Origin: Microbacterium schleiferi
Lineage (GTDB): Bacteria; Actinomycetota; Actinomycetes; Actinomycetales; Microbacteriaceae
DNA length: 64,000 bases
Assembly (NCBI RefSeq): GCF_015565955.1
Contig: NZ_CP064760.1
Location: 1,612,001 to 1,676,000 of the forward strand
Direction: 5' to 3'
Below the pieces are notes generated by a model, which was not told the DNA's origin, searched no databases, and saw nothing but the letters and a program-made list of their open reading frames with translations. The translations under genes and the position numbers were made by a program. Below, piece by piece: positions 43,242-64,000 of this stretch; positions within the stretch are counted from its first letter, which is position 1; each line of letters starts with the position of its first letter.

Positions 43242-44665
43242 ATGTTCAAAGATTCATCCGAGGTGCTGAAGTTCATCAAGGACGAGGACGTCAAGTTCCT
43301 CGACATCCGTTTCACGGACCTCCCCGGTGTGCAGCAGCACTTCAACATTCCGGCATCCACCGTCGACGAGGACTTCTTCACCGTCGGCCAGTTGTTCGAC
43401 GGATCCTCGATCCGCGGCTTCGCGAACATCCACGAGTCGGACATGCAGCTCATCCCGGATGTCACCACGGCGTACCTCGACCCGTTCCGCGACGCCAAGA
43501 CGCTGATCATGGTGTTCGACATCTACAACCCGCGTACCGGCGAGATTTACCACAAGGACCCGCGCCAGGTCGCGAAGAAGGCCGAGAAGTTCCTCGCGTC
43601 CACCGGCATCGCCGACACGGCGTTCTTCGCCCCCGAAGCAGAGTTCTACATCTTCGACGACGTGCGTTACGAGGTGAAGCAGAACTCGAGCTTCTACTCC
43701 GTGGACTCCTCCGAGGGCGCGTGGAACTCCGGCCGCGAAGAAGAGGGCGGCAACCTCGGCAACAAGACCCCGTACAAGGGCGGATACTTCCCCGTCTCCC
43801 CCGTCGACAAGACGGCTGACCTCCGTGACGACATCTCGCTCCGACTCATCGAGTCGGGACTGGAGCTCGAGCGCGCTCACCACGAGGTGGGTACCGGCGG
43901 TCAGCAGGAGATCAACTACAAGTTCGACACGATGGTTCACGCCGCCGACGACATCTTGAAGTTCAAGTACATCGTCAAGAACGTGGCCGAGCAGTGGGGC
44001 AAGGTTGCGACCTTCATGCCGAAGCCGCTCTTCGGCGACAACGGATCGGGTATGCACACCCACCAGTCGCTGTGGCTCGAGGGCAAGCCCCTCTTCTACG
44101 ACGAGGCCGGCTACGCCCAGCTCTCCGACACGGCCCGGTGGTACATCGGTGGCCTGCTCGCTCACGCCCCCGCGGTGCTCGCGTTCACCAACCCGACGCT
44201 GAACTCCTACAAGCGTCTGGTCAAGGGCTACGAGGCCCCGGTCAACCTGGTGTACTCGGCCGGTAACCGTTCGGCAGCCGTCCGCATCCCGATCACGGGG
44301 TCGAACCCGAAGGCCAAGCGCCTCGAGTTCCGCGCTCCCGACTCGTCGGGTAACCCCTACCTCGCTTTCGCGGCACAGCTTATGGCTGGCATCGACGGCA
44401 TCCTCAACCGCATCGAGCCGCACGAGCCCGTCGACAAGGACCTGTACGAGCTGCCCCCGAGGAGGCCAAGCTCATCCCGCAGGTCCCGAACTCGCTGCTG
44501 GACTCGCTCGACGCCCTGCGCGCCGACCACGAGTTCCTGCTGCGCGGCAACGTGTTCACGCCTGAGCTCATCGAGACCTGGATCGACTACAAGTTCGAGA
44601 ACGAGATCCAGCCGATGAACGCACGTCCTCACCCCTTCGAGTACGAGCTGTACTTCGGGGTCTGA
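43242..44665 (+). CDS. glnA: Glutamine synthetase type I, broken by one-base deletion
   Basis: 474 residues when repaired, the usual GSI length. It makes glutamine from glutamate, ammonia and ATP in the cytoplasm. Motifs are FDGSSIRGF, the metal site [26 protein letters not shown], the ATP-binding [18 protein letters not shown] and NRSAAVRIP. The frame breaks at the C run 44454-44458 after LYELP; one added base gives [14 protein letters not shown] and 475 codons ending YELYFGV, with the adenylylation-site region in between. ATG 43242 has GGAG 5 nt upstream. The GlnR-type box suggests nitrogen control. Confidence 0.95.
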
Positions 44666-47663: not shown

Positions 47664-50600
47664 CTACAGGCGCGGCGCGGATACCGCGACTGCGCTGACC
47701 GTGGACGCCGGTTCTGCTGCGCGTGCCGCGAGCTGTTGTGCGCGTAGGATCGCGGCGCATGCTCGCGCGGCGTCTGTGCGCTGCCGCACGTCGTCGCCGA
47801 TGACTCCGACCGCGCTGGTCTCGGTGATGCCGTAGGTGTCTCGGTAGGCCGCGACGGTGCGCGCCTCGCGTCGCCAGATCGCGGCAAGCTGCGGATCGGC
47901 GGGCTCTGGGCCGAGTTCCGCGGCCCATGCGTCGGACGCCCCAACCGCTTCGGAGACAAGTGCAGCGGCGCGCTGCTCGATGAGTACGGCGCGTTCGCGG
48001 AGCGCGGCGCGCATGTCGTCGTCCATCGTGCCGAGAGCCGGGGTGATGAGTCCGGCGATAGGTACGGCGGCCTGGCGCACGCGCCCGGCACCGTCCGCTC
48101 GGCCGAGGGCACGGATCACCCGTTCGTGGAGCACCGCGGCCACGTCGCCCGCGTCGTCGAGCGGGCGCGAAGCGACGAGCGCGCGCAGCAGGCGCTCCGT
48201 GTCGTACCCGTCCGCCTCGGCGCGACGCAGCTCGGCACCGAGCACACCGAACGCGGTCGATCCAATGGCGGCGTCGGCTTCGGCCTCGGTGAGTCGGGTC
48301 GCGCGCACGAGGGCTTCCCAACGTGGTTGCTGTGCGGCGGCGGCAATGGTCTCGTACTCGGCGGCGAGCTGGCCGACCGAGCACCAGGCGTCCTGCTCGG
48401 CGGCGATCATCTGGCGGGCGGAGAGTTCCGCTCCAACGTGCTGGAGCACCCCAGCGAGCACCTTGCGGGCCGCGACCGCCTTGGTGTCCTGGGTCGGCGG
48501 ATGGATGTGGTCGTCGTCGGGACGGTTGATCGAGACGTAGGCGGTGTTCCCGAGCCTTCCGCGGGTCATGGCTACGTAGAAGTTCTCGCGCGTTGCGCCG
48601 GGCTCGATGAGCGTGTGCCCGGTGTCGACGGTGACCCCTTGCGCCCGGTACGCGGTGACGGCGTAGCCGAGTTCGACATGCTCGGCGACGTACCCCGCGG
48701 GGAGTCGCAGCGTCGCGCCCCAGCGCCGCCTGGCGGGCCGCACCCGCAGCGACCCGTCGCCGCCGATGGCGGTGACCGTCCACCGGCTGCCGTTGCGCAC
48801 CCATCCGCGCCCGGCGCGCAGCGCGCGGTCGTTGCGGCGGGTGATGATCGCGTCCCCAATGGATGCCTCGGTGCCGTCGTGCAGCCGTACCTCGGCGCGT
48901 GCGTCGACCACCTTGGCCAGTATGAGGTCGGCGCGGGCGCGCTGGTTCAGGGTGGTGACCATCGTGCTCGACTCGGCGATGAGGATGCTCGCCAGCCCTG
49001 CTCCCCGGTCGCGCTGCCATGCGGCGTAGGCGGCGTCGGCCATGCGCTCGGCTTCGCCCGCGCGGATGCGGCCGTGCGCTTGGTAGGTGTCGATGGCCTC
49101 GACACGACCGTTGCGCAGGTCGAGCGTGGCATCCTTCTCCCATGCCGCGGCGATGCGGCGCACGTCGGTCAGCTCGGGCACGTCCTCACGGTCAGCGACG
49201 AGCATCCCGAACGCTCCCCCGGCATCGACGGACTGGAGCTGGGCGGGGTCGCCCACGAGCAGCACCTTCGCCCCGGCGTCGGCCGCGACGCGCACGAGCC
49301 GGTCGAGGGCAAGCGTCCCGCCGAGCGATGCCTCGTCCACGATCACGAGCTGCCCGGCGGCGAATCCCATGCCGTGGTCGCGGTAGGTCTGCCACCACTT
49401 CGCGGTGTTCTCCGTCGGGATGCCCAGGTCACCGGCCAGCACCTCGGCCGCGACCGCGGACGGTGCCAGGCCGACGACCGAGCCGTGCCCGTGCTCGGCC
49501 TCCCATGCGCGACGCAACGCGCGCAGCGCGGTGGTCTTGCCCGCCCCCGCGGGGCCGACGAGCAGGTCGAGCATCCGGCCTGACGACGCAATCGCTGCGA
49601 GTGCGGCGCGCTGGTCGTCGCCGAGCGCGCGGCCCCGCTGGGGTTGCAGCGCGTGCGCGATGGTTGCATCCGCCAGGAACGGCGCAACCTGCTCGCGGGA
49701 GCGTGCAAGTAGCCGGTCCTCGGCAGCGAGCACCGCGGCACCGCTGTAGCGGGCGGCGTTGCGCGGGCGGAACACGCTCGTCCCGTCCGTGCGCTGGAAC
49801 GCAACGGGACTGGAGGCCAGCTCGGGCGGGGTGAGCCGGATGGACGCCTGCTCCGCGGCATCGACGATCATGCCAGTGATCGCCTCGCGATCCTCCGTGG
49901 CGGCGAACCGCCAGCCCATCGTCTGCCGCGCGGCTTCGGCGTAGAGGTTCCAGTGGCTCCACGTCGTGCGCTTCTCCGCGACCGCTGCGACCACCGCCGC
50001 GCCGAGCCGAGCAATCCGCTCCACCGGCACGTCCTCCGCCCGCAGCAGCTCCACGGGCTCGACTGCCACGGCTCCCCGTGCCCATTCGGTCGCGTCCCGG
50101 CCGAGCACGCGGCTCGCGCGAGTGCGCCACTCCTGGGTGAGGTCGGCGAGCGGGCGGACTTCCTTGTCGGGCCGGGTCGCCAGCGTCGCCTGCTGCCGCA
50201 GCCGGATGATCGTCTCCCGCGAGGGCGCGTGCCCGTGCGTGGCCTCGTACTCGGCGATCAGGCTGTCCTTCTCAACGTCGATGTGCCGCGACCGGGACGA
50301 GAACTCTGCGACCAGTCCCTCCGGCACCGTGACGACCGACCACACCGGGTTGCGATCGGCCCCGCGGTCCCGCCTCTCCCAGCCGACGCCGAGCGCACGG
50401 GTGAGATGGTCGGCGAAGACCGCGTTGTGCAGCTCGCTCAGCGCCACGGTCGCCGCGTGCAGTGGCCGGCCATCCAGCGACCGCCACTTGCCGTCGAACA
50501 GGGTGCGCACCTTGTTGCTCACCACGACATGCGTGTGCAACTGCGGATCCCCCGCCCGCGAGTCGAAATGATCGAACGCGGTTGCGATCAGCCCCATCAC

Positions 50601-51209
50601 CTCGGCCTGTGCAACCGCGCCGTCGCGCGAGGTTGCGCCCGAGCGCGTGGCCGCAAGCTCCCACTCCATGAACGCAACCACCTCTGCAACCGCAGCGTGG
50701 TGCGCCTCGGCGATGCGCGCTTGGGTCGCCGCGTCCGCAACACCCCACAGCACGGAAGCGGACTTCGGCAGCGAGAACGTGAAGTCATATCCCGCGACCG
50801 CCCGCCGCGATGTGCGGGCCGCTTCCTCCGCTTCGATCACGATGACCGCCTCGGCGCGCTTTGCCGCGCCCAGCGTCGGGTCGAGCCGGGCGAGCCGCGC
50901 TGCGATCCGATCCTCGACGCTCGGGAACACCGGGTATGACTTACCCAGCGGATCGCCCGTCACTGGGTCGAGGCCCAAGCCGAGCAAGAGCTGAAGCTGC
51001 GCCTCGGAAACCTGCGCGCCCTCGTGGATCTCGCCGTTCCCGATCGCCGTCAGACCGCTGCCTATCCAGCGACCGGGCGGGGTGCCCTGCTCGGCGTAGT
51101 AGCGGGTTAGCGACGTCGACAGCGACCGCTCGCCGTCGGCGGACGCCACGGTGCGCAGCAGGTACTTGTAGCCATCCCCCGCGCCCATGACCCGCATCGA
51201 AACCGACAT
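47664..51209 (-). CDS. MobF-family relaxase fused to a helicase (TrwC/TraA type)
   Basis: 1181 residues. The relaxase domain (about 1-370) has the catalytic tyrosine pair in LTRYYAEQG (Y37/Y38) and the three-histidine metal site in LHTHVVVSN near residues 222-230. A RecD/TraI-like helicase follows with Walker A VGPAGAGKTTALRAL near 551-565, LVIVDEASLGG (Walker B), and a C-terminal VELGYAVTAYRAQGVTVDTGHTL segment. A relaxase of this type nicks oriT, stays bound to the 5' end and unwinds DNA for conjugal transfer. It marks the region as conjugative or mobilizable; no coupling protein or type IV secretion gene is in the window. GAGAGAGG lies 9 nt before the ATG. Confidence 0.93.
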   Translation of the reverse strand: MSVSMRVMGAGDGYKYLLRTVASADGERSLSTSLTRYYAEQGTPPGRWIGSGLTAIGNGEIHEGAQVSEAQLQLLLGLGLDPVTGDPLGKSYPVFPSVEDRIAARLARLDPTLGAAKRAEAVIVIEAEEAARTSRRAVAGYDFTFSLPKSASVLWGVADAATQARIAEAHHAAVAEVVAFMEWELAATRSGATSRDGAVAQAEVMGLIATAFDHFDSRAGDPQLHTHVVVSNKVRTLFDGKWRSLDGRPLHAATVALSELHNAVFADHLTRALGVGWERRDRGADRNPVWSVVTVPEGLVAEFSSRSRHIDVEKDSLIAEYEATHGHAPSRETIIRLRQQATLATRPDKEVRPLADLTQEWRTRASRVLGRDATEWARGAVAVEPVELLRAEDVPVERIARLGAAVVAAVAEKRTTWSHWNLYAEAARQTMGWRFAATEDREAITGMIVDAAEQASIRLTPPELASSPVAFQRTDGTSVFRPRNAARYSGAAVLAAEDRLLARSREQVAPFLADATIAHALQPQRGRALGDDQRAALAAIASSGRMLDLLVGPAGAGKTTALRALRRAWEAEHGHGSVVGLAPSAVAAEVLAGDLGIPTENTAKWWQTYRDHGMGFAAGQLVIVDEASLGGTLALDRLVRVAADAGAKVLLVGDPAQLQSVDAGGAFGMLVADREDVPELTDVRRIAAAWEKDATLDLRNGRVEAIDTYQAHGRIRAGEAERMADAAYAAWQRDRGAGLASILIAESSTMVTTLNQRARADLILAKVVDARAEVRLHDGTEASIGDAIITRRNDRALRAGRGWVRNGSRWTVTAIGGDGSLRVRPARRRWGATLRLPAGYVAEHVELGYAVTAYRAQGVTVDTGHTLIEPGATRENFYVAMTRGRLGNTAYVSINRPDDDHIHPPTQDTKAVAARKVLAGVLQHVGAELSARQMIAAEQDAWCSVGQLAAEYETIAAAAQQPRWEALVRATRLTEAEADAAIGSTAFGVLGAELRRAEADGYDTERLLRALVASRPLDDAGDVAAVLHERVIRALGRADGAGRVRQAAVPIAGLITPALGTMDDDMRAALRERAVLIEQRAAALVSEAVGASDAWAAELGPEPADPQLAAIWRREARTVAAYRDTYGITETSAVGVIGDDVRQRTDAARACAAILRAQQLAARAAEPASTVSAVAVSAPRL

Positions 51210-51267: not shown

Positions 51268-51340
51268 GGCCTGGATGTGCAAGACGTGTACACGGCCGAG
51301 TGAGCAATTCGTACTGATCGCCTCTGCTAGACAGGACGAC

Positions 51341-52420
51341 GTGCATGAATGGATCGAGGGCTCGACAGGGCGAACCGTTGTCCTGCTGGGCGCTGGCGCA
51401 TCCCAGCCATTCGTTCCCATGTCGAGAGCCCTGACACCCCTTGTCATCGAGTACCTCGACGAGACCTACACCGCCGACCTACCCTCGCATCAACTCTGGC
51501 GCGCGATCAGCCCCGAGGCGAGGTTACTCGGCGATGACATTGAGTATCTGTACCAAGCAGTCGAGACCCTGGGCTACCAGGAGAGCGACCCAACCCGACA
51601 CTGGATCGAAGGGTTCCGCCGTCTCGGCCCGTATGACGAATCCGAAGTTGGCCGAAGAGAGTTTGCACGAGACGCTCGATTCATCACGAGCACGATCGCG
51701 TCGGCTGCGTACGGCATTATCCGGGAGCGATCCGCGTCTGCCAGCACCGATCACTTCTCCTCCCTTCTACGTGCGGGGGTGGCCGGGATCGTCACGCTCA
51801 ACTACGACACCATCCTCGAAACTTCCGCTCGGGTGCACGGCATCCCGCTCAGCACAGGTGCCGAACAATGGGATGCGGGATCGCGGTGGTCGTTCCCCGC
51901 AGGCCACCTCCCGCTGCTCAAGCTCCACGGTTCAGTCAATTGGCGAGCGTCCCGCGTCGTTACGCCTACCTGGCAGATTCCGCGCGTCGGCCTCTATGAG
52001 GTTGACGATCCCGCAGCCGCCGCACCGAACGGACGGATCGACGCGAATCTCGTGTTCGGCGGTGGCAACAAGTTGCGCCCGGATGGACCCTGGCCGGCTC
52101 TATTCGCAGCATTCGAAGACATCCTCGCCGCAGCTGACGTTCTCGTCGTCGTGGGCTATTCGTTCCGCGACCCCCATGTCGACCTAGCGATGCGACGGTG
52201 GGTCGCAGGCGGCGGCGAGCGAAAGCTCATCGTCATCGATCCTTATCCGAATGACAGCGCACCGATGCAGTCAAGCTTCGGAAGCTTCCGCTACGCGCTC
52301 GATCCCGACTACGTCGCAGCGGACGGAACGGAAGGCCTGCTTCGGGGGCGCGACGGTCGCCGCATGGCACTAGTTCGCGAAGGCGTCACGAGCGGCCTCC
52401 CCCAGGTATTTGGGGATTGA
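51341..52420 (+). CDS. SIR2-like domain protein, probable NAD+-dependent defence effector
   Basis: 359 residues. The Rossmann-type SIR2 signature begins with VVLLGAGAS (14-22), followed by IVTLNYDTILE near residue 160, LLKLHGSVNW near 200 and VLVVVGYSFRDPH near 275. Such SIR2 domains in phage-defence proteins deplete NAD+ after infection. There is no C-terminal TPR, HerA or Argonaute partner next to it, so its trigger is unknown. I choose GTG 51341 with AGGA 4 nt upstream; the open frame extends to 51275. It is the only plus-strand gene of the island and ends 5 nt from the BREX operon. Confidence 0.8.
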   Translation: MHEWIEGSTGRTVVLLGAGASQPFVPMSRALTPLVIEYLDETYTADLPSHQLWRAISPEARLLGDDIEYLYQAVETLGYQESDPTRHWIEGFRRLGPYDESEVGRREFARDARFITSTIASAAYGIIRERSASASTDHFSSLLRAGVAGIVTLNYDTILETSARVHGIPLSTGAEQWDAGSRWSFPAGHLPLLKLHGSVNWRASRVVTPTWQIPRVGLYEVDDPAAAAPNGRIDANLVFGGGNKLRPDGPWPALFAAFEDILAAADVLVVVGYSFRDPHVDLAMRRWVAGGGERKLIVIDPYPNDSAPMQSSFGSFRYALDPDYVAADGTEGLLRGRDGRRMALVREGVTSGLPQVFGD

Positions 52421-52425
52421 CCAGC

Positions 52426-54510
52426 TCATGAAGCTGAGTCCGGGACGTTGGCGAAAGCTATCGGCCCACCAACTACCTCCGACGCGTTGGCCCTGTCAAC
52501 GAACCGTTCCGCGAGAGTCGCTCGGGCGAGGTCGGCCGGGAGAGCCGCCGAGAATTTCAGCCCCGACACCGCGTCCGGTGCGATGAACGGCAGGGCCTCA
52601 CCTAGCGCGGATCCCCGAAATTCCGCAAGATCAAAGGCTGGAGCGAAGCGCATCGACTCGTTCGTCGACCTCGCCTCGAACTCATTGGGCAGCGCGGCTG
52701 CAAGGGTCTCGTGCGCACGCAAGCCCGCCATGCTCCACAGCACGACATCCTTTTCGCCGCGAGCAAGCACAAGACCCGCCGGATCGACGCGCTCGCTCCA
52801 GACCCCGCGAATGGTGCCGAGCGCATCGACCGCGCGCTGCGACATCGACGCCGGCGGATCTTCACCGAGAAGCACTTCTCGTCGCGCGCGCACCATCTCG
52901 AACGACTCCGGCAGGGGCTCGGATGACCACCGCACCTTGCCCCGATCAGCCTCGGGCTCGACGTCGACGCGGTGCCGTTGCCAGTCGACGGCGACAACCT
53001 TCCAGGCGTGGCCGGCGAGCAGCAGCGGCTTCTCGCCACGGATGACAGCGGCGTTGAGCGAGATGGGTGAAACGCCGCCAATCTCCTTTCTGCCGTGGAG
53101 CACGGTCAACTCCAAGTCAGCAATGAAGGTACTCAGCAACTCCAGGAAGTTCCGTCCACCGAAATCGCGCTCGGCGGAAGGGCCGATGAAGAGCCATCCC
53201 CCGTCCTCAGCGAGGTACCCAGAGGAGGCCAGGTATTCCAGCACCTCGGCCCCGTCTGCCATGACGGGGCTTCCAGCCCACCATTCCTGCCAGCGTGCCC
53301 GCGCGAATCGCCCTTCCTGAAGAGCGAGCGCGAGGAACTGTTGAGCGGCGATGTGCCTGGGCGCTGGCGGCGGCGTGACAGGCTCGACGAAGCCCTGCCC
53401 CCAGAGGTGAAGCAATCCTGCGGCACGAAGGAACGTCTCATGCTCCGTCGCCAAGAAGAGAGCATTCCTGGAGGCCCCTGCCCGCCGCCCTGTGCGGCCG
53501 AGTCGCTGCAGGAACGACCCGACCGAGCGCGGCGAGTCGAGTTGAATCATGCGATCGAGGTCGCCGATGTCGATGCCAAGTTCGAGGGTCGAGGTCGACA
53601 CGATGACGCAGTCGCGAGCTTCGGCGAACGCCGTCTCGCTCTGCCGCCGTTCGTCCAGTGATAGTGACGAGTGCGAGATGAACGTTGTGACGCCTTGATC
53701 GCGCAGCCCGAAGGTGAGTTGCTCCGCCTGCGCACGGGACTCGCAGAACACGAGCCGCTTCTCTCCCGCGTGCAAGGCTGCAATGACGACGGCAGCATTC
53801 TCCACCGAACCGACATAGTCGAGCGCGAGGTCGGGAGCAGCAGGCGGATCGCCTGCTGAGATGACACGCCCTCCCACCCCCGCCGCAACGTTTGATCCCT
53901 GGTACCAGGTGAGCACATCCTCGGGGTTGCCGAGAGTCGCCGACAGCCCGATGCGCTGGATACGGTGCTCGGCGAGTCGCTGGATGCGTTCGAGTACGGC
54001 GACGAGGTGCCAGCCGCGATCCCCCGCAGCGAAGGAGTGGATCTCGTCGGCGATGACGACGTGCAGGTCTCTGAAGAGCAGGCGGTGGTCGACTCGACGG
54101 GACACGAGCACCGCTTCGAGCGACTCCGGCGTGGTGAGCAGAATGTCCGGCGGTTCACTCAGGATCGCACGCCGTGCACTGTCTCCGATGTCGCCGTGCC
54201 AGAGCGCGACTCGACGGCCAAGCCAGGCGGTGTACTGGTCAAGGCGCGGCAGCAGGTTGTTCAGGAGTGCCTTCAGCGGAGCAACGTAGATGACGCTCAG
54301 GCCATGCCAGCCTTCGTCGATCATGCGAGACAGCACCGGGAACGATGCCGCTTCGGTCTTCCCTCCTGCGGTCGGGGCGATGAGGAGGCAGTCAGCGCCA
54401 GAGCGCACCGGTTCGATCGAGGCGCGCTGAAGCGGGCGCAGATCCTGCCAGCCGAGGGAGTTCGCGACGTGATATTCGAGCGCGCCAGCAAGCTCGGTGC
54501 TGCTAGACAT
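52426..54510 (-). CDS. brxHI: DEAD/DEAH-box helicase of the BREX-2 system
   Basis: 694 residues of the Lhr-like helicase group. Motif I is LLIAPTAGGKTEA near residue 38, motif II is VIADEIHSFA (about 151-160), motif III is GLSATLGNPED, and motif VI is QRLGRTGRRAG near 338. Motif IV-V includes VIVSTSTLELGIDIGD. In type 2 BREX loci this is the last gene, as here. It overlaps brxD by 8 nt. Its exact part in exclusion of phage DNA is not known. Gene name is by position and domain. Confidence 0.88.
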   Translation of the reverse strand: MSSSTELAGALEYHVANSLGWQDLRPLQRASIEPVRSGADCLLIAPTAGGKTEAASFPVLSRMIDEGWHGLSVIYVAPLKALLNNLLPRLDQYTAWLGRRVALWHGDIGDSARRAILSEPPDILLTTPESLEAVLVSRRVDHRLLFRDLHVVIADEIHSFAAGDRGWHLVAVLERIQRLAEHRIQRIGLSATLGNPEDVLTWYQGSNVAAGVGGRVISAGDPPAAPDLALDYVGSVENAAVVIAALHAGEKRLVFCESRAQAEQLTFGLRDQGVTTFISHSSLSLDERRQSETAFAEARDCVIVSTSTLELGIDIGDLDRMIQLDSPRSVGSFLQRLGRTGRRAGASRNALFLATEHETFLRAAGLLHLWGQGFVEPVTPPPAPRHIAAQQFLALALQEGRFARARWQEWWAGSPVMADGAEVLEYLASSGYLAEDGGWLFIGPSAERDFGGRNFLELLSTFIADLELTVLHGRKEIGGVSPISLNAAVIRGEKPLLLAGHAWKVVAVDWQRHRVDVEPEADRGKVRWSSEPLPESFEMVRARREVLLGEDPPASMSQRAVDALGTIRGVWSERVDPAGLVLARGEKDVVLWSMAGLRAHETLAAALPNEFEARSTNESMRFAPAFDLAEFRGSALGEALPFIAPDAVSGLKFSAALPADLARATLAERFVDRANASEVVGGPIAFANVPDSAS

Positions 54511-55813
54511 CTATCTGGATCGCGTCGAGACCGCCGATCGCCGCGCGCTCGTCGGCGTTGAGTTCTGCCTCTGCGACCACGATGGCGGATGTCTCGGCGG
54601 GCATGTACTCGGGGAACTGCTCGATCTTGTCGAGGATGTCGACGAGCTTCCGGAGATACAGGCGTGGTGCGATGCCGACCTTCCCGCCGAGTCTGCCTGC
54701 GACTGTGTCGGCGAGTCCTCCGAGATACCCGTCGGTGACGAGTGCGGCAATACGGTCTGCCTGCGGGCTCCCGGCGGCGTAGATGTCGCGAACACGCTGC
54801 CCGAGTTCTTGCAGGCTGTCCCGCTGGAATCCCAGGAGTCTGACCTGCGGTGCTCTCGGGTTGTCCCAGCGCGGATCACCGCTGAAGTCGACGCCGATGC
54901 GGGCGGCGAGCGGCGGGAGTCGCTGCACTCCCTGGGTGCCGTCGTAGAACGCAGGTGTGCCAGTGATGAGCACGTAGAGCCCGGGGAATCGTCCGGCGTC
55001 GATCTCATCGAGGAGTTGCCGCAACGCATTGAGCGACTTCTCTCGTACATCGCTGCGGACGCGCTGGAGCGTTTCGACCTCGTCGAGGACGAGCACCAGC
55101 CCGCGGTAGTCGGAGTCACGGAGCACCGCAAGGAGTCCTTGGAGGAACCCGAGTGCTCCGAAGTGGTCAAGGTCGCCGCGAACCCCGGCGACCCGGCGCA
55201 CGGATGCCGCGACGTGCGGCTGCCCTCCGAGCCAGGCGGCGAGTCCGTCGGCCGTCTCGATGTTTCCGGTGGTGGTCGCCTCGTGGTAGCCGCGAAGGGC
55301 GGCGGCGAAGGCGGGGGCGGTGCGTGACACCGTTGCGAGTCGCTGCTCGAGCAGGGTCTCGGCGCGACGAGCCACCTCGCCGCGATCCGCGGCGTCAGCA
55401 CCGGCGGCGATGGCGTCCTCTTCGAGGACACGCAACCAGCCATCGATGACTTCGCGGAAGGCGCTCGGGCCTGTTGCCTCGGTGGCGAGATTCTCGGTGA
55501 TCCGCCGGTAGATGGTCTCCAGCCGATGCAGTGGGGTCTCGGTCTCCGAGATTTGCACCTCGGCGGTGGCGAAGCCGCGCTGCTTCGCCGTCTCGGTAAG
55601 CCAGCGGGCGAAGAAGGTCTTGCCAGCGCCGTACTCGCCGCGCACTGCTTTGAAGACGGCTCCGCCATCGGCGGCGACGTCAAGTTCGTCGTTCAGCGCG
55701 AGCTGGAAGCGGTCGAGCCCGACGGCCATGACGTCGAGGCCGCGCTGCGGGACGGTTCCGCGCCGGAGCGCGTCAATGATCTCTCGACGTCTGCGTGGGC
55801 TGATGACTGTCAC
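54503..55813 (-). CDS. brxD: BREX system ATP-binding protein BrxD
   Basis: 436 residues. Walker A is GEYGAGKTFFARW near residues 59-71 and Walker B is LVLVLDEVETLQR near 246-258. The start ISPRRRREIIDALRRGTVPQRGLDVMAVG is typical of BrxD. The C-terminal part is helical. The ATG overlaps the pglZ stop by 4 nt and the gene overlaps brxHI by 8 nt. In BREX-2 it works with PglW/X/Y/Z; the mechanism is unknown. Confidence 0.9.
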   Translation of the reverse strand: MTVISPRRRREIIDALRRGTVPQRGLDVMAVGLDRFQLALNDELDVAADGGAVFKAVRGEYGAGKTFFARWLTETAKQRGFATAEVQISETETPLHRLETIYRRITENLATEATGPSAFREVIDGWLRVLEEDAIAAGADAADRGEVARRAETLLEQRLATVSRTAPAFAAALRGYHEATTTGNIETADGLAAWLGGQPHVAASVRRVAGVRGDLDHFGALGFLQGLLAVLRDSDYRGLVLVLDEVETLQRVRSDVREKSLNALRQLLDEIDAGRFPGLYVLITGTPAFYDGTQGVQRLPPLAARIGVDFSGDPRWDNPRAPQVRLLGFQRDSLQELGQRVRDIYAAGSPQADRIAALVTDGYLGGLADTVAGRLGGKVGIAPRLYLRKLVDILDKIEQFPEYMPAETSAIVVAEAELNADERAAIGGLDAIQIDV

Positions 55814-58473
55814 GAACCGCTCCCCAGCTCAAACTGCTCGCGGAGCAGCACAACGTCGAGGATCACAGTGACGCCGTCCGCATCGATGTCGATGACCGGG
55901 TACCCGTCGATATTGAGCACTCGTCGGAGCGCGGCAAGAAGGCCCGACATTGTCGCGGACGGAATCCCCGCGTTGACAGCGAGGGTGTCACGGTGGGCAC
56001 GTCCGCCACCGCCGACAAGTGTTGCCACGATGGTCGTCGCGAGGGCATCATCGACGGGGTGGCGGCCAGCGATGCCTCGTCGCGCCTTGTATGTCGCGCT
56101 GTCGATCAGTCGCTCGGCGAGACTCCCATCTTGCGGCACGGGGGTCGCGGCAGCTTCGGGCTCGAAGTCGAACAAAGTGGAGCCCGCGGGAACCTTCGGC
56201 GCCCTCGGCTTCACCACCTTGGGTGGAGAGGAGGCTGCCTCCGCCACGGGTCTGGCGGGTTCGTTCCACCATGTTGGCTCCTGCGGTGGCGCTTCGACCC
56301 ATCCCAATGGGTCATGCGCGCCGCGCGGCTTGAGCACAACGATCGGGATCGTGAGTTCGGCGAGCGATGCGCCGCCGTGGTATCCGGCCTTCTTCGAGGC
56401 GTAGCGGAGGCCATCGGATACCGCAAGCACAGCACTCCCGCCGGGTGCGAGCACCCTGGGGCCGGTGACGAGGATCTCATCGGCAGATGCCGGGCCGGTC
56501 GAGGGGTCGCGCCATCGTGCCGACGATTGAGGCACGCTGCGCAGATCGCTTCCGCGTTCGACGATGTGCCCGTGGTCGGAGGTGAGGATAACGATTCGCC
56601 CCGCATCGTGTGCGGCCGCGAGGATCGCTTCGAGGTGGGCGACCGAGTGCAGCGTCCAGCGGAGCGCGTCGACGTCGGCACTGGCAAGGGCGTCGTCGAT
56701 CGTGTTCAAGACGACACCGACAAGTTTCCGCCCGGCGTCAGCGATCGCATCGGTGACTGCAGGCGGGAGCGCATGCCCAGCTTGGGCGCGAAGGTCATCC
56801 TTATGAAAGACGATCCCCCCGGCCGCCGCGGCGAACCGCGCCTTCTCGGTCTGCTGGTTGCCCGCAAGCAGCTCACCAGCGAAGAGCGATGTACGCGAGT
56901 ACTCGGTGATGGTGGGGAGGACAGCGAATGCTGTACTCCGCCGGAGCGTCGACTCACGGACGAGTTCGATCCAGCCCCGCGCGGGAACCTCGACGGCGAG
57001 TTCCACGGCCGTCGGTGCGCTCATCCCGTCGAGCACGATGATGAGGACGCGGTCGCGCACGACAAGCGGCACGACGAGCTGCGACAGAAGCGACTCGACG
57101 GGCAGCACCGCGCCGTCCGCCGCAAGCGCCCCTGTGAGCACCTGGGCGGCGGCAGCATCTTGCTCGCGGCGCACATGCTGCACTGCGTGCGCAAGCGCTC
57201 GGTACGCGTGCGCGAGGCCACGATCAGTGTCGCCGTCCCAGATGTCACCAAGGGCGCGCTCCGCCCACGCGCCATCCGCCGCATAGGCGAGGATCGCCGC
57301 GTTCAGCCCGGCTGTGGGCGTGGTGACCTCACCAAGCCAGCGCACGAGCCGCGCGGCCATCCGCGCGGTGTCATGTGAACGCGCGAATGTGGCGCGAGCC
57401 CCGTGCGCTTCGATGGCGGCAAGCGCTGCGTCCACGGCAAGGGAGGCTCGCGCGCCGGGCGCAGCCGCTGCCGCCTCGATCGCCGTGGCGAACTCGGCCA
57501 CTCGCGCACGAAGGCCCGCAGGCAGGAAGTCGGACGACGCGGCGCCCTCCCCCCAGCCGAGGTCGCCGCAGAGCGCTTCGGCCTGTTCGAGCACCTCGCG
57601 GGCGTGCGGATCACCATCCGCAAGCCAGCGCTGTGTGATGAGCTTCGCCGACGCGCCATAGCGCTGCGCGGCCGCGGCGCTCGGCGCGGTGCCGACGTGC
57701 TGCTCCGCGCGCACCCGCGCAGCAGCGACCGTCGCATCGGGGGCAACCGAACCGGCAGCCCACAGCTCCCCTACCACGAGCCCAACGGCGATCGCCGAGA
57801 TTCGTCCCGGCGCACTGGCGGCGCGGAGCGCCATCGCGAGGTGCGGATCGACATGCGCCGCAACAGCCCGGATCAAACCGGCGCGGGCGTCCTCGTCGAG
57901 GTCTGTCAGCCGTACTCGTACGCCCAGGTCATCGAGTGGCGCGAGCGCGGTCGAAGATTCGAGAGCGTCGAGCCGGTCGAGCCCGAGCAGCGCGACGAGG
58001 ATCGATCGCACAACGTGGTCGGCGGAGAGCACCCCGCCCGGAGCCGGGGCGTACCCACGGTCGCGCCGCAGGGAGGTCAAGAGGCGCGGAACCCACGGGC
58101 CAAGGTCGCGCACGGGACGAGCTGCGGCATCCCGCACTCCGAAGAGGGCGGGCACGATGTTCCACTCATCGAGGTCGGTGACCTTCTGCTTCTCGGCGTC
58201 GAGCACGACGGCTGTTCCCAGCTCAGCCTCCGTGAGGGCGGTGAGCACCGCGACGAACTCCCCCTCGCCTGCCGAACGCATCGCGTCGAGTGCCGCGAGC
58301 CCCGAAATGCCCTCCACGACCCGCACTCTTGCGTCCCCGAACTCCAGTACCGGGGCGCCCGACCAGGTGGGCTGGGCGCGCACGAGGATCGTGCGCGAGC
58401 GTCGGCGCGTGCCCCCGAGCCACGCGGCAAGGTGCTCGCGCAGGGCGGTCTCGGTGGCGATCGGGGCGGTCAT
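55810..58473 (-). CDS. pglZ: BREX-2 PglZ, alkaline-phosphatase-superfamily protein
   Basis: 887 residues. The PglZ domain lies in the middle: VLIIVLDGMSAPTAVELA near residue 480 (metal-binding Asp), a TEYSRTSLFAGELLAGNQQ segment with the probable Thr/Ser nucleophile region, VVLNTIDDALA, and VILTSDHGHIVERG (DHGH). The N-terminal 450 residues are helical. PglZ is the hallmark gene of all BREX types. ATG 58473 lies 2 nt after the pglY stop; a GTG at 58491 would overlap pglY and is less likely. Confidence 0.92.
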   Translation of the reverse strand: MTAPIATETALREHLAAWLGGTRRRSRTILVRAQPTWSGAPVLEFGDARVRVVEGISGLAALDAMRSAGEGEFVAVLTALTEAELGTAVVLDAEKQKVTDLDEWNIVPALFGVRDAAARPVRDLGPWVPRLLTSLRRDRGYAPAPGGVLSADHVVRSILVALLGLDRLDALESSTALAPLDDLGVRVRLTDLDEDARAGLIRAVAAHVDPHLAMALRAASAPGRISAIAVGLVVGELWAAGSVAPDATVAAARVRAEQHVGTAPSAAAAQRYGASAKLITQRWLADGDPHAREVLEQAEALCGDLGWGEGAASSDFLPAGLRARVAEFATAIEAAAAAPGARASLAVDAALAAIEAHGARATFARSHDTARMAARLVRWLGEVTTPTAGLNAAILAYAADGAWAERALGDIWDGDTDRGLAHAYRALAHAVQHVRREQDAAAAQVLTGALAADGAVLPVESLLSQLVVPLVVRDRVLIIVLDGMSAPTAVELAVEVPARGWIELVRESTLRRSTAFAVLPTITEYSRTSLFAGELLAGNQQTEKARFAAAAGGIVFHKDDLRAQAGHALPPAVTDAIADAGRKLVGVVLNTIDDALASADVDALRWTLHSVAHLEAILAAAHDAGRIVILTSDHGHIVERGSDLRSVPQSSARWRDPSTGPASADEILVTGPRVLAPGGSAVLAVSDGLRYASKKAGYHGGASLAELTIPIVVLKPRGAHDPLGWVEAPPQEPTWWNEPARPVAEAASSPPKVVKPRAPKVPAGSTLFDFEPEAAATPVPQDGSLAERLIDSATYKARRGIAGRHPVDDALATTIVATLVGGGGRAHRDTLAVNAGIPSATMSGLLAALRRVLNIDGYPVIDIDADGVTVILDVVLLREQFELGSGS

Positions 58474-58475
58474 GA

Positions 58476-61400
58476 TCACTCGACCTGCCACGTGATTGTG
58501 ACACTGCCGTCCGAGCCGGCTTCCTGTTCGATCTCAGCACGCAGTTCCTCGAGCACGCCGCCGAGTTCCGCGACGGAGGCGGTGCGTCGGTGCTGCTGAC
58601 CCCCGGGTGGAGTCGGTGTCGGTCGCGGAACGGGTGCTTGAACCACGAGCGCGCGCGCCTTCGCCGCGACATCACGGAGGCGGGGCTCAAGCGGCACGAC
58701 CGACTCGTCGACGTTGGCGGCCTCACGCAACAATCCGAGTGCCGCCTCGAACCCAGCATCGCCGCGCGACTGCGCCGCCCGATGATCCCCCAGTCGAGGC
58801 CGGCCAGCTCACGGGAGAGTCGCTCGGCTGACCCGTGCGCACTCCCGAAGGCGGTGAGTTCGGCGGGAAGGTCGAAGGTGGCGAGTGTCTCGATCAGTGA
58901 CTTGTCGCCACTCGCAGATGACAGTGATTTGACGAGTTCCACGACACGACGGGAGGTGGCGAGACGGCCGGTCGCGCCGGTCTTGTCGATGCCGAGCATG
59001 TCGGCATGCGCCTCAAGCTGGCCGACCAGAGCGCCGATCTGGCTCCCCGCGAGCTGCGTGCGGATGACCCCAGCGAACCGCGAGACGGCGCGCGGAGTGA
59101 GGTTCACCTCACGCGCGACGCCGAAGACCGACCCGGCCCGCTCCGCAGCGAGGCTCCAGTCCGCCTCACTCGGCAGGTTCGCCTTCCGTGGAGTCGACCC
59201 GTCCGGCAGCGTGCCGATCGCGGGCGTGCCCGCGCCCGTGAACTCGTAGTTGCCGAGCAGCGCCCAAGTGATGAGGATCGCGTCTTGCATCCCCCTCGTC
59301 AGGCCCCAGGGGGCGAGCTTTGCACGCAGCCCCCCGACGGTGATCGCCGTGCCGAGCTCGCCCTCCCAACGAGCGAGGTTGGCGCCCCATCTGAAGTTCG
59401 CGGCGTCGACGACGAGCACGTTCTCGTTTCGTGCTCCGAGCCCGAGGGGCACGATGATGTCTTGCGCGAGTCGCTGCTCCACGGCGGCGAGTCCCTGCCG
59501 GCGGCCACCCGCCTCAACCGTCGAGGTGACGAGCGCGAGCGCCTCGCCGAGTCGGCGATCCGTGACCTCATCACTGCCGAGGTCGGGGTGCTCCGGGAAC
59601 TCATGCTTCCACGCCGTCTCCAGCGCATGCCGCAGACCGGTGAGCAGGGTGCCGGTCGGGGGCGGCGCGATCGTGAGCCCAGGTATCAGCGCGGAGTAGA
59701 TCTCGTTCCCGCCAAGATCGCTGCCGACATTCGCCTCGTCGGGAGCGTTGACGCCGTAGGCCTGCCGGAGCGCCACGGCCAGCACCTCTCGCAGCGTGCG
59801 CCGCTGGGATTCAAGTGTCTGGCGAGCGGGCCCACGATCAGCCTGGGCTAGGTGGTCGGCGTTCTGGTCGAAGCGACTGCCGGTGAGCAGATACTCGAGC
59901 AGCACAAGCTTGCCGAGGTCGCCTTGGCGCGCGTCGGAGAGGAAGTTCGGAATCCACGCGATGGTGTTCGCCGAGCGTCCGCCTTCGCGGAGCTTCCGGA
60001 GCCGTGCGACATCGTCGGCCGGTGAGTGGGTCCCGCTGTCGTAAGGGAAGTCGATGACGGCGTGCCACTCGCTGTCACCGTGGATGAGGTCGCTTTCGAG
60101 CACTTCGGCCTCATCGCGGACGTTGCCGAACTTCACCGTGACCGTGCGCTTGTGGCCACGCCAGACGTGCGGCAGTTGGCGTCCGACGAGATTGTCGGGC
60201 GGAAGCTGGAGCTCTTCGGCGATGAGCTTGCGGATGAGTTCCCGACGGGTCTGCTGGTTGTCTTCGGTGCGGACTCGGTCGAGGATCGAGTCGTAGTCGA
60301 CGCCGCTGAGGGTTGCGGTGATGATCGGGTCGGCCCCGTCGCCGATATGGATTTCGCCGAACTCGCCCGCCCAACCCCGCACGAGGCTAAGCACCTGCTC
60401 CGCCTCGGTGCCGGGGATAAAGGCGTCGATGGTGCCCCAATTCAGGGCCGCGAGCTTCGCTGCGGTGAGGTTTTCCAATGACTTCGCCTCGGGCGCGAGC
60501 GCGGCGATCAGCACGGTCTTCGCCAGCCGGTCTTCGGTGACGAACGCGTGGCCGCGAGGAAGCCCGGCGATGTCGCTCTCGGCGAGCCCGTGCTTGCGGA
60601 GCAGGTAGAGCAACATCTTCGTCCGGTAGAAGCGGGCGGAGATCGCGAAGTGCTGCTTCATCTCTTCGGTGAGCGGCTGCGAGCCGCCGAGCACCACAGG
60701 AGCGTAGAGGTCGCCGACGGGGATGACGTCCCGCACGAGCAAGCTGTCGCGGCCACGGCTGAGCAACTCGGCCATGAGCTTGAGCGCGGTGCGCTCGCGC
60801 TGCATCAGGCTGGAGAGGGCGACCATCGTGTCGACGAGTGCAGGGCTGAAAGGGTAGACATCAGCGAAGGCCCGCTCGTCGGAGTTCGCGTCATCGCTGA
60901 GCAGGTAACCCCACGCCGCATAGTCGCGCTTGACCTCGGTGAGCGCCTGGCTGAGCGTCGCAGCGGCGGCGGGTGAAACCGGCTGGAGGAGTCGTTGTTT
61001 GACGATCTTCGGCAGGTCGGCGGCCTGAAGTCGGATCTTCGAGAAGCGATCCTCCCAGTACTGGAAGAGCTGCCCCTGGGCGACCCGCTGCGCGCCCGCG
61101 ACATGCGAGCCGAGGAAGTCGCGCAGGTCGCGCTGCCGGGCGAGGAACGAGGCGATCGGGATCGGGAGGTTCGCGGCCGCATTCTCGGCGAGCTGCACGA
61201 CCTTCTCGATCTCACCCTGCACCCATGCCTGGTCGGCGAGGTGCTGGCCGAGCCAGAGTACGATCTCATCGATGAGGAAGACAAGCCCCTGATAGCCGAT
61301 CGACTTCGCGTGCGCAGTCAGCGACTGCAAGCCTTCCTTCATGGGCAGCCACTCACCGGAGCGTCCGTAGCCGCCAAAATAGGCGGCCACGAGGTCGCCG

Positions 61401-62056
61401 ACGAGCCGATCCCGATCCGCATGTCCGGGTGCTTCCGACGCGGCGGCGTCGAAGCTCGCCGCATCCCATGCTCCGCCGAGGTCGCCCCAGCCGGAGTCAC
61501 CGCTGCCGAGGCCCTCGAAGAAGGGCTCATCGCCCATGCGTGAGCGCAACCCTCGCGCGTCGGCGATCAGCGAGTCACTCGCGTGGAGCACCGGCGGAGG
61601 GGCGTCAGGGTGCCTGCGGGCCACGGTGTCGAGGTATCCGCCGAAGATCGCGTCCTCGAAGGAGCGCGCCCCGAGCAGGTTGTAGTCGAGCACGAGGAGA
61701 TTCCGCTCCAGCGTGTCCTGCCGGGCGGCGACGATAGGCGCGAGGCCAGGGATTTGCCGGGCGGGGATGCTGCCCGAGAGCAGCAGGTGGAGCACCGCCA
61801 TGTAGTGCGACTTGCCGGAACCGAACGAGCCATCGAGGAATGCGCCGCGGGAGGACTGCCCGCGCAGCGCGCTCGCGACGAGGTCGAGCCCATCGCCGAT
61901 CGCGCCCGCGATCGCGTCGGTGACGACGTAGTCCTTGATGGTCTGCTCGTGCCGGGCGACACCTTCGTCGAGCTTGATGACGAAGTCGGCGGCCTCGACC
62001 CGCTCGGGCAGGTGGATGAGGTCGCGCAGGGGCGAGTTCAGGGTGTACTCGGTCAT
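58476..62056 (-). CDS. pglY: BREX-2 PglY ATPase, broken by one-base deletion
   Basis: 1193 residues when repaired. Walker A is DGSFGSGKSHYMAVLH near residues 74-89, and LVFLIDEIVLWLGQH near 260 is the Walker B block. The rest is long and helical. The frame breaks near the C run 58787-58791, after LAGLDWG; one added base leads into DHRAAQSRGDAGFEAALGLLREAANVDE and gives exactly 1194 codons, ending VTITWQVE just before pglZ. Without repair it would run on inside pglZ to 58223 with nonsense sequence. The ATG overlaps the pglX stop by 4 nt. PglY is required with PglW, X and Z in Streptomyces Pgl. Confidence 0.9.
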
Positions 62057-64000
62057 GATGCGCTCCTCCTCCCGCGCGCGGGAGCCGCTGGCCGCCAGGC
62101 GGCGACGGCATCTCTGCCGAGGGCGAGTCGGCCGAGCAGCGTGGTGGTGATACCCGCGACTGCTGTGGCGGGGCTGACGCCGGTGCGGGCGTCCAACTCA
62201 TCGTGCCACTGCTTCAGCCACGGCTCGATCTCGATGAGCGCACCGACGAGCGGGATGACCTGCTCGTCGGGTGCCCCGGCACGCGACAGGTCGTTCGCAA
62301 GTCGGGCGATCGCCTGCCCGCGCTCGCCGTGATCCCACCCGGCCCACCCATACAGCTCGGTTGCGTCGTCGACGAGCTTGCTGCCGGGGAATGAGATGAA
62401 CCGCTCCTTCGGGACGTCCAGCTTGCCGCGCGCCGACCAGTACGACGTCCTGAGAAAATCTGCGGGCGCGTACTTGGGCGGCACCGGCACGTCGACACGT
62501 TCGCCGCGGTCCTCGGCTCGCTGCAACTCCCACGTGCGCTCCCATATCCGGAACTTCTCGATGCCGGATGGCTTGTACCTGAGCGCCGCGAGCCCCGGAA
62601 CGGCCTCACCCGCGAGGAGCTTGCCGACCTCAGCGGTGAGGTCGTAGTCCTGCGAACCGGTGTGGATGACCATCAGCTCACGGAACCGCTCGTCGCGCCG
62701 CAGCTCATCCGCAACCTGCGCGCCGGAGCGCACCACCGGGCGACCAGAGCCGTCATGCCACAGTTCGGGTGCTTCGAGACGGTCGAGAAGTGCGATCCTT
62801 ACGGCATCGGCGACAAGTTGATCCCAGCCTTGGGTCTCCCACTTCCGCTTGAAGTCCGGTGTTTCGAGCAGGCGGACGGATGAGTTCGCGTCGATTTCAG
62901 CGAGACGACGCTCTACAAGTTTCGCGTAGTCAACGTCCGCGAACTCAGGCACGGCATCCGTGGTCACGCTGGCAAACTCATCGAACCAGCGAGTTACGAG
63001 CTCACCGGCAGCCACTCGTCTGGCGAGCCCGATCTCTACGGGTCGTTCGCCGACCAACAACACCTGCTGAACCTGATCGGCAGATAGTGCCTCAAGCTCA
63101 GTAAGCCCGTACGCGTGGTAAGCCGCCCAATCGAGTTCTTCCTGAAGCGCGATCATCAGCGCGCGTATGTTCCACCAGCGCTCACCTGCACTTCTCAAGG
63201 CACCTGCGAGGCGCTCTGACGCTTCGAACGCGCTCGGCAACAAGCTCGCACTTTCCTGAGCCAGTTCGTCAAGTCGAGCTGCGTACTTCTTCAACGAGGT
63301 GGGTGTAAGAGGAAACTCATGGAGTTTCGTGGCTGTGAACTCATAGAAGTCGCGCCACTTCTCGTCCTTGCTACTGCCTCCGCCGGGGCCGCCCTTGTTG
63401 TGGCTGACCTGCTTGAGCCAGAAGCAGGCGACAGAGGAGTTGAGCACACCGAGCAGGTCGTAGTGGTCGTCCTCGGTCGCTCCCCCGGCAGCTTGATCAC
63501 GGGCGCGGACTTATTGAAGACTCCTGGCTCCCGTGTGAGAACGAAATGATTGTGCGTTGCAACGAAGGCGAACGTGATGAGACGATCCGAGTTGAGCCGC
63601 GGGTGATGAACAAAGGCATACTCACCCCACCACTGTCCCCGCTCGGTCGGAGTCTGCCCAAAATAGATCACCGCGTCAAGCGAGCTACGATACGGCCAAT
63701 AGCTTGCCGAGTTCCGCTTTGAATCCGGAACGAGGTAAGGGTTCAGCACCAGTCGAGAATCCTGCACACCCCAGTCGCGAACCCCCTGCCCTTCTACATA
63801 TGGACGCGCCGGGATGGACTCCCAGCGCATTGATCCGGTCGGAGAATCACGGACGTGAAAATCGTCCAACCCCGTTATCGCTACGAAGCCGATGTTCTCG
63901 GCGACGTGCCCGAGTGTCACGCTGCTACGGCGCTCAATGGACTCCTTCAGACCTGCCGCCCCGCCGCCCGAGAGCGACCACGGGAACACGGCGTAGGTCA
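62053..64000 (-). CDS. pglX: BREX-2 PglX adenine methyltransferase, C-terminal part; one-base deletion
   Basis: About the last 650 residues; the N-terminal methyltransferase core lies beyond 64000. The upstream part reads LKESIERRSSVTLGHVAENIGFVAITGLDDF and the downstream part LNSSVACFWLKQVSHNKGG, WFDEFASVTTDAVPEF and RLLETPDFKRKW, matching the target-recognition and C-terminal regions of PglX. The frames differ, with the break at the C run 63482-63486 (a G5 tract on the coding strand). One added G gives KLPGGATEDDHYDLLGVLNSSVACF. In Streptomyces coelicolor pglX is known to phase-vary by a G tract, so this may be real rather than error. It overlaps pglY by 4 nt. Confidence 0.88.

Follow-up and report, generated by a model that had tools for sequence, protein, structure and literature searches.

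A type 2 BREX operon with an insertion sequence in pglW, carried by a putative integrative and conjugative element at glnA in Microbacterium schleiferi

The stretch of DNA described here (the window, 64,000 nucleotides in length) corresponds to G000:C1:1612001-1676000 of the 3.30-Mb single-contig genome of Microbacterium schleiferi, and from position 52426 onwards it is occupied by an operon for type 2 bacteriophage exclusion (BREX), or phage growth limitation (Pgl). The operon runs past window position 64000 into the stretch that continues it in the same genome, whose coordinates are prefixed L003. It contains the full gene set in the order pglW-pglX-pglY-pglZ-brxD-brxHI and spans 17.1 kb, and when its proteins were searched with the profiles of PADLOC, Pfam and NCBIfam, all six genes fell in BREX/Pgl families, as listed below.

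52426..54510, minus strand: brxHI, Lhr-like helicase of 694 amino acids, final gene of the operon (PADLOC PDLC02503, E 2e-274, 910 bits; Pfam DEAD and Helicase_C)
54503..55813, minus strand: brxD, ATPase of 436 amino acids (NCBIfam NF033438, 637.7 bits, cut-off 350; Pfam BrxC_BrxD; PADLOC E 3.5e-195)
55810..58473, minus strand: pglZ, 887 amino acids in one open frame (NCBIfam NF033446, BREX-2 PglZ, 704.6 bits, cut-off 200; PADLOC E 2.6e-222)
58476..62056, minus strand: pglY, BrxC-like ATPase (PADLOC PDLC02488, 1157 bits, E 0; NCBIfam NF047891, 831.8 bits, cut-off 1700)
62053..64000, minus strand: pglX, C-terminal and middle parts, continuing to L003:1614 (NCBIfam NF033451, in three pieces of 516.8, 132.7 and 624.9 bits, the cut-off being 400 for the whole protein; PADLOC E 5.4e-190, 4.7e-44 and 4.1e-154)
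L003:1611-5546: main part of pglW (PADLOC PglW profile from position 67 onwards; kinase domain matched in Pfam)
L003:7059-7328: first part of pglW, a frame of 89 codons (PglW profile positions 3-68, part of the NERD domain)

A sequence-only reading of the window had named five consecutive minus-strand genes, from a partial PglX through PglY, PglZ and BrxD to BrxHI, and these are borne out in position by the open reading frames and in identity by the profile scores; the kinase gene pglW, which it expected just upstream of pglX and beyond the window, was found there. The motifs that it read are all present, namely DHGH in PglZ (at residue 633) and the Walker motifs of BrxD (GEYGAGKT) and PglY (GSFGSGKS, Walker A). 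PglW has the motif HRDIK. Past position 64000, PglX carries an Eco57I-type methyltransferase domain with DPACGSG and NPPY, and neither PglZ nor PglY belongs to an unrelated family. The junctions, too, are as described, with overlaps of 8 nt (brxHI/brxD) and 4 nt (brxD/pglZ and pglY/pglX, and likewise pglX/pglW beyond the window), while 2 nt separate the stop codon of pglY from the pglZ ATG at 58473. Gene content and order thus support a type 2 BREX operon, but the intact, coupled operon that the reading implied is not supported, since pglW is split by an insertion sequence (IS) and the assembly shows neither pglX nor pglY as a continuous gene. These breaks, and the mobile element that carries the operon, had gone unmentioned.

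As for membership in type 2 BREX, a BREX-2-type PglZ, a BREX-2-type PglX with an adenine methyltransferase domain, the PglY ATPase, BrxD and BrxHI after pglZ, and a pglW gene are all present, but pglW is not intact, having a 1666-bp IS inside it. Excerpts of a published survey put PglW in ~80% of type 2 BREX taxa (PMC12839542). The locus is new in detail and known in kind; it is another type 2 BREX.

The IS in pglW occupies L003:5454-7119 (1666 bp) and has 16-nt terminal repeats and a 5-bp target duplication. Its transposase gene (DDE_Tnp_1_4 in Pfam) lies between the two parts of pglW, and we take the element to belong to the IS1380 family. The gene is broken within the NERD domain, after approximately codon 68, so that the first NERD part is separated from the kinase part and the IS sits between the operon start and all downstream genes. 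The genome has seven copies of the element at 100% identity, the one in pglW among them, and five at 83%. Each of the seven identical copies sits between perfect duplications of 5 bp with the form CTWAR, and therefore the insertion in pglW is real and the IS has been active recently. In Microbacterium mitrae (G118), in G052 and in Cryobacterium sp. BB307 (G418), the corresponding parts of pglW directly adjoin each other.

Among the best 80 of 222 related loci, with one locus left out and one genome present in both sets, a PglW match was found in 37 of 37 and 40 of 42 genomes, and most of the best matches are a single long frame. The other clear insertion in pglW is that of Pseudonocardia oceani KRD185 (L075, L173), where ~1.5 kb, including a Transposase_mut gene, separates the match to query residues 1-43 from that to residues 37 onwards. 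Like the M. schleiferi locus, this BREX-2 carries its IS within the NERD-coding sequence of pglW, but the IS (L173:4312-5787) is unrelated, its transposase is of another family and the insertion lies ~40 codons further on. The pglW of Georgenia subflava reads in two frames. Several short pglW frames come from fragmented assemblies, G481, G487, G488 and G517 among them, and could not be judged. If insertions were uniform along the gene, two within the first ~130 of ~1400 codons would have a probability of ~0.9%, by arithmetic done post hoc, and the clustering of the two insertions in NERD is suggestive, no more. Matches in two frames also exist for other proteins of the related loci, i.e. PglX (L075, L128), PglY (L091) and PglZ (L084, L112), for which the queries miss divergent copies.

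Breaks of another kind affect pglX, whose frame changes near window position 63480 and near L003:1300 (resulting in three frames), and pglY, whose frame changes near 58779, each time at a short run of G. A Viterbi scan based on codon usage, in which breaks without a nearby gene boundary were counted, gave 27 breaks in 19 control stretches of the M. schleiferi genome (380 kb), 22 of them at G4+/C4+ runs, versus 4 breaks in 380 kb of six relatives, 2 of them at such runs, with a codon model that was trained per set and may differ in power. By the same filter, the operon has two breaks (58781 and 63489) versus 1.2 expected (P 0.34), and glnA is broken likewise at window position 44454. In relatives, the four pieces of pglX share one frame (L060, L061, L063 and L064); in L091 pglX is continuous and pglY is split elsewhere. 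Since such breaks are ~7 times commoner across the assembly than in the relatives, glnA included, homopolymer under-calling seems the likeliest cause of the breaks in pglX and pglY, ahead of decay or phase variation. Overall, the assembly shows ~7 breaks in every 100 kb, most of which fall at short runs of G or C, and with a rate raised to this degree pseudogene calls in this genome need care.

The operon is carried by a putative integrative and conjugative element (ICE) of 55.3 kb at the 3′ end of glnA; the right end of the element is found in a further stretch of the same genome (prefix L006).

44644..44658, plus strand: left attachment (att) site, in the last codons of glnA (15-nt exact direct repeat, 21/22 nt over the extended repeat)
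L006:15966-15980: right att site, 55,322 bp from the left one and adjoining the integrase
L006:14231-15553: integrase, a tyrosine recombinase (Pfam), with a small helix-turn-helix gene also adjoining and glnE as the next gene outside
47664..51209, minus strand: MobF/TrwC-type relaxase (NCBIfam NF041492 MobF, 229.7 bits, cut-off 100; Pfam TrwC)
51275..52420, plus strand: SIR2-like gene, convergent with brxHI, cargo and not part of BREX (Pfam SIR2_2, E 6.8e-13)

The element also holds a TraG-type coupling protein (T4SS-DNA_transf), an M23 peptidase, a primase and a ParB-like gene that scores below its Pfam cut-off, and it would presumably be able to transfer. Of 11 loci in relatives, four have an empty site, with the glnA tail at most 1 kb from glnE; a search with the exact motif did not resolve the other seven. 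Some integrase match exists in 100 of 299 genomes of the family; full-length copies at 88-99% identity occur in seven other genomes from five other genera, and G214 has a partial copy (95% identity) with a stop. By eye, a sequence resembling the glnA 3′ end lies at the same distance from the integrase in all eight full-length copies, that of M. schleiferi included. At the opposite end of the element, glnA was seen in G322, G245 and G226; the contig of G217 ends first, and G260, G457 and G392 were not covered at that end. Two of the glnA elements are short, with 13 kb in G226 and 16 kb in G245, and have no match to this TraG. Among openly licensed PMC papers, none was found on BREX on an actinobacterial or Microbacterium ICE, on an ICE at glnA or on an IS in pglW; glnA itself serves as a phylogenetic marker in PMC6071183. 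Besides the SIR2-like gene, other genes of the element also resemble defence or anti-restriction functions, specifically an AAA_15/OLD-like ATPase (45090-47015) and a 1644-aa SNF2-helicase protein (L006:8215-13149). The genome also has a second, related primase-MobF element (G000:C1:1161444-1191614; L191, L192), with what look like cytochrome-biogenesis genes in its slot.

Taken as a whole, these data make it quite probable that the locus is a type 2 BREX transported as ICE cargo, that its pglW is interrupted by an IS and that the frame breaks in pglX and pglY are base-calling errors. The 1666-bp element, presumably of the IS1380 type, has jumped into the NERD part of pglW and parted the first piece of NERD from the kinase, and the operon copy on the carrier element would then give no phage protection. 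In a working type 2 system, PglX would methylate DNA, PglW and PglY would provide resistance and PglZ would keep PglX in check; in Streptomyces coelicolor, according to excerpts of PMC4365076, PglX is a DNA methyltransferase, PglY an ATPase needed for phage resistance and PglZ a restraint on PglX toxicity, while PglW has its NERD domain at residues 12-130 and its kinase activity is needed for Pgl resistance. Because of this requirement, the pglW copy of M. schleiferi is most likely inactivated, and this BREX copy is probably inactive against phage. Several points weigh against the reading as a whole. PglY falls short of its NCBIfam cut-off (NF047891, 831.8 of 1700 bits), as does PglW (NF033442, 955.6 bits against 990), although both profiles are still the top NCBIfam matches and both genes are broken in the assembly. 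The third frame break (L003:1300) is passed over by the filter, owing to a possible start close to the stop, and counting it gives three breaks versus 1.2 (P 0.12). The transfer genes are identified in part, the VirB4- and VirB6-like genes being named by position, with no Pfam match. Finally, what remains of pglW is a 1311-codon open frame that starts inside the IS and retains an intact kinase domain match, and partial or altered PglW function is therefore possible.

This remaining frame is the basis of a very unlikely alternative, in which the IS removed nothing but NERD and a shortened PglW, starting inside the IS, works as both kinase and sensor in a NERD-less Pgl system. The interrupted pglW of P. 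oceani KRD185, which stays open for 1283 codons (stop to stop) after its IS, would fit this idea, as would the proposal, in the excerpts of PMC12839542, that NERD is a backup, suicidal nuclease. However, there are two cases only, silencing of an operon is also achieved most simply by inserting something near its 5′ end, and a scan of the IS region for sigma-70-like promoters, the one type covered, gave none. True decay, with real frameshifts in pglX and pglY besides the IS in pglW and with brxD, brxHI and pglZ, the antitoxin-like member, kept, is likewise unlikely. Three breaks do fall in two adjacent genes while pglZ, brxD and brxHI are open, and it would be logical for pglX to be lost earlier than pglZ, given the toxicity of PglX in S. 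coelicolor when PglZ is missing (excerpts of PMC4365076), but the operon is not significantly enriched in breaks of a kind that is scattered over the assembly and has hit glnA too. A phase-variable pglX, caught in the OFF state, would have a precedent in S. coelicolor, where the same excerpts attribute Pgl switching to a tract of G within pglX, which is 8 G long in the resistant strain, and one of the pglX breaks does sit in a run of five G. Such a run is short, equal breaks occur genome-wide, and G or C runs of at least 7 were found in 3 of 39 pglX frames in the 80 related loci, at differing places; phase variation was thus rejected as highly improbable.

The slot between the MobF relaxase and the primase, in which this BREX resides, contains the SIR2-like gene, the BREX-2 operon with its IS, and an AraC-type regulator. 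In G322, a genome of another genus, the same slot holds BrxA, BrxC, PglX, PglZ and BrxL (L176:5240-18278), a type 1 BREX set by the definition of that type (BrxB was not sought). The G322 element shares with that of M. schleiferi an integrase that is 97% identical, the glnA 3′ site at both ends, a length of ~54.6 kb and the relaxase-primase slot, but differs in its type 1 cargo and in its MobF match, which is partial, 64% identical and contains a stop codon. The slot of G260, with a TraG 99.8% identical (29 of ~36 kb read), has type III restriction-modification (R-M) genes and an SNF2/HKD helicase. In 15 further primase-MobF slots (the stretches of G376 and G325 being slightly short), BREX was absent, with no tblastn match at 1e-10 to the BREX-2 pieces or to the type 1 proteins of G322. 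PADLOC at 1e-20 matched eight of ten proteins from 5 of these 15 slots, i.e. Hma (G376), a type III methyltransferase (G391), type IIG (G590), type I (G612) and a weak type IIG (G325), and some of the other ten have metal-transport, cytochrome or metabolic genes, by look only. A slot dedicated to defence as a general rule is therefore unsupported.

A DUF6545 protein paired with an alpha/beta-hydrolase recurs in 7 of 18 cargo slots, those of G322 (L176:2931-5083), G260, G376, G391, G590, G612 and, in part, G325, but was not found in the M. schleiferi element. All seven also have a PADLOC match to R-M, BREX or Hma (weak in G325), with 10 of the 11 others unscanned.

Judging from the available genomes, few relatives have a type 2 BREX: PglZ matches occur in 3 of 149 genomes of the genus (100, 58 and 36% identity), and BrxD matches in 7 of 299 genomes of the family, four of them, M. 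schleiferi included, at 65% or more. On plasmids, six records match PglW at 1e-40, all below 60% identity and none covering 80% of the query. The closest BREX-2 among the 80 loci, that of Cryobacterium sp. BB307 (L060), has the same six genes in the same order, with 77% DNA identity over 16 kb (PglZ 81%, BrxD 89%), but its pglW, pglX and pglY are continuous. Since this nearest relative has no match to the integrase or TraG of the M. schleiferi element in the 35 kb read, the BREX cassette appears to move between elements. A broader proposal, that IS repeatedly disarm type 2 BREX at the NERD start of pglW with the kinase frame kept (either as a NERD-less variant or as a silenced, costly operon) and that type 1 and type 2 cassettes exchange in the slot beside the relaxase, is speculative and unlikely to hold in full.

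The Pgl system of S. coelicolor has the same pglW, pglX, pglY and pglZ families, including a PglW with NERD and kinase domains, a PglX with NPPY and a PglY with Walker A. It is arranged in two operons there (excerpts of PMC4365076), whereas the six genes form one run here, with pglW interrupted by an IS and no long G tract at the pglX break. Within pglX, one stretch is set apart by its divergence.

63483..63998, minus strand: least conserved stretch of pglX against Cryobacterium, a possible target-recognition part (68% identity versus 80-91% elsewhere in PglX)

This stretch is again the lowest part of PglX in L061 (39%) and L091 (42%), while in L063 (61%) it is no lower than the C-terminal part. 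The pattern partly fits a target-recognition region, and the methylated motif may therefore differ between relatives.

For the study of such systems, these observations imply that (i) a gene-complete BREX call from a domain reading can conceal a pglW broken by an IS, and (ii) assembly quality should be weighed before frame breaks in pglX are claimed as phase variation. Having pglW interrupted within NERD in two separate cases also makes the role of NERD directly testable, and a NERD-less Pgl variant, if true, would have shed its suicidal nuclease.

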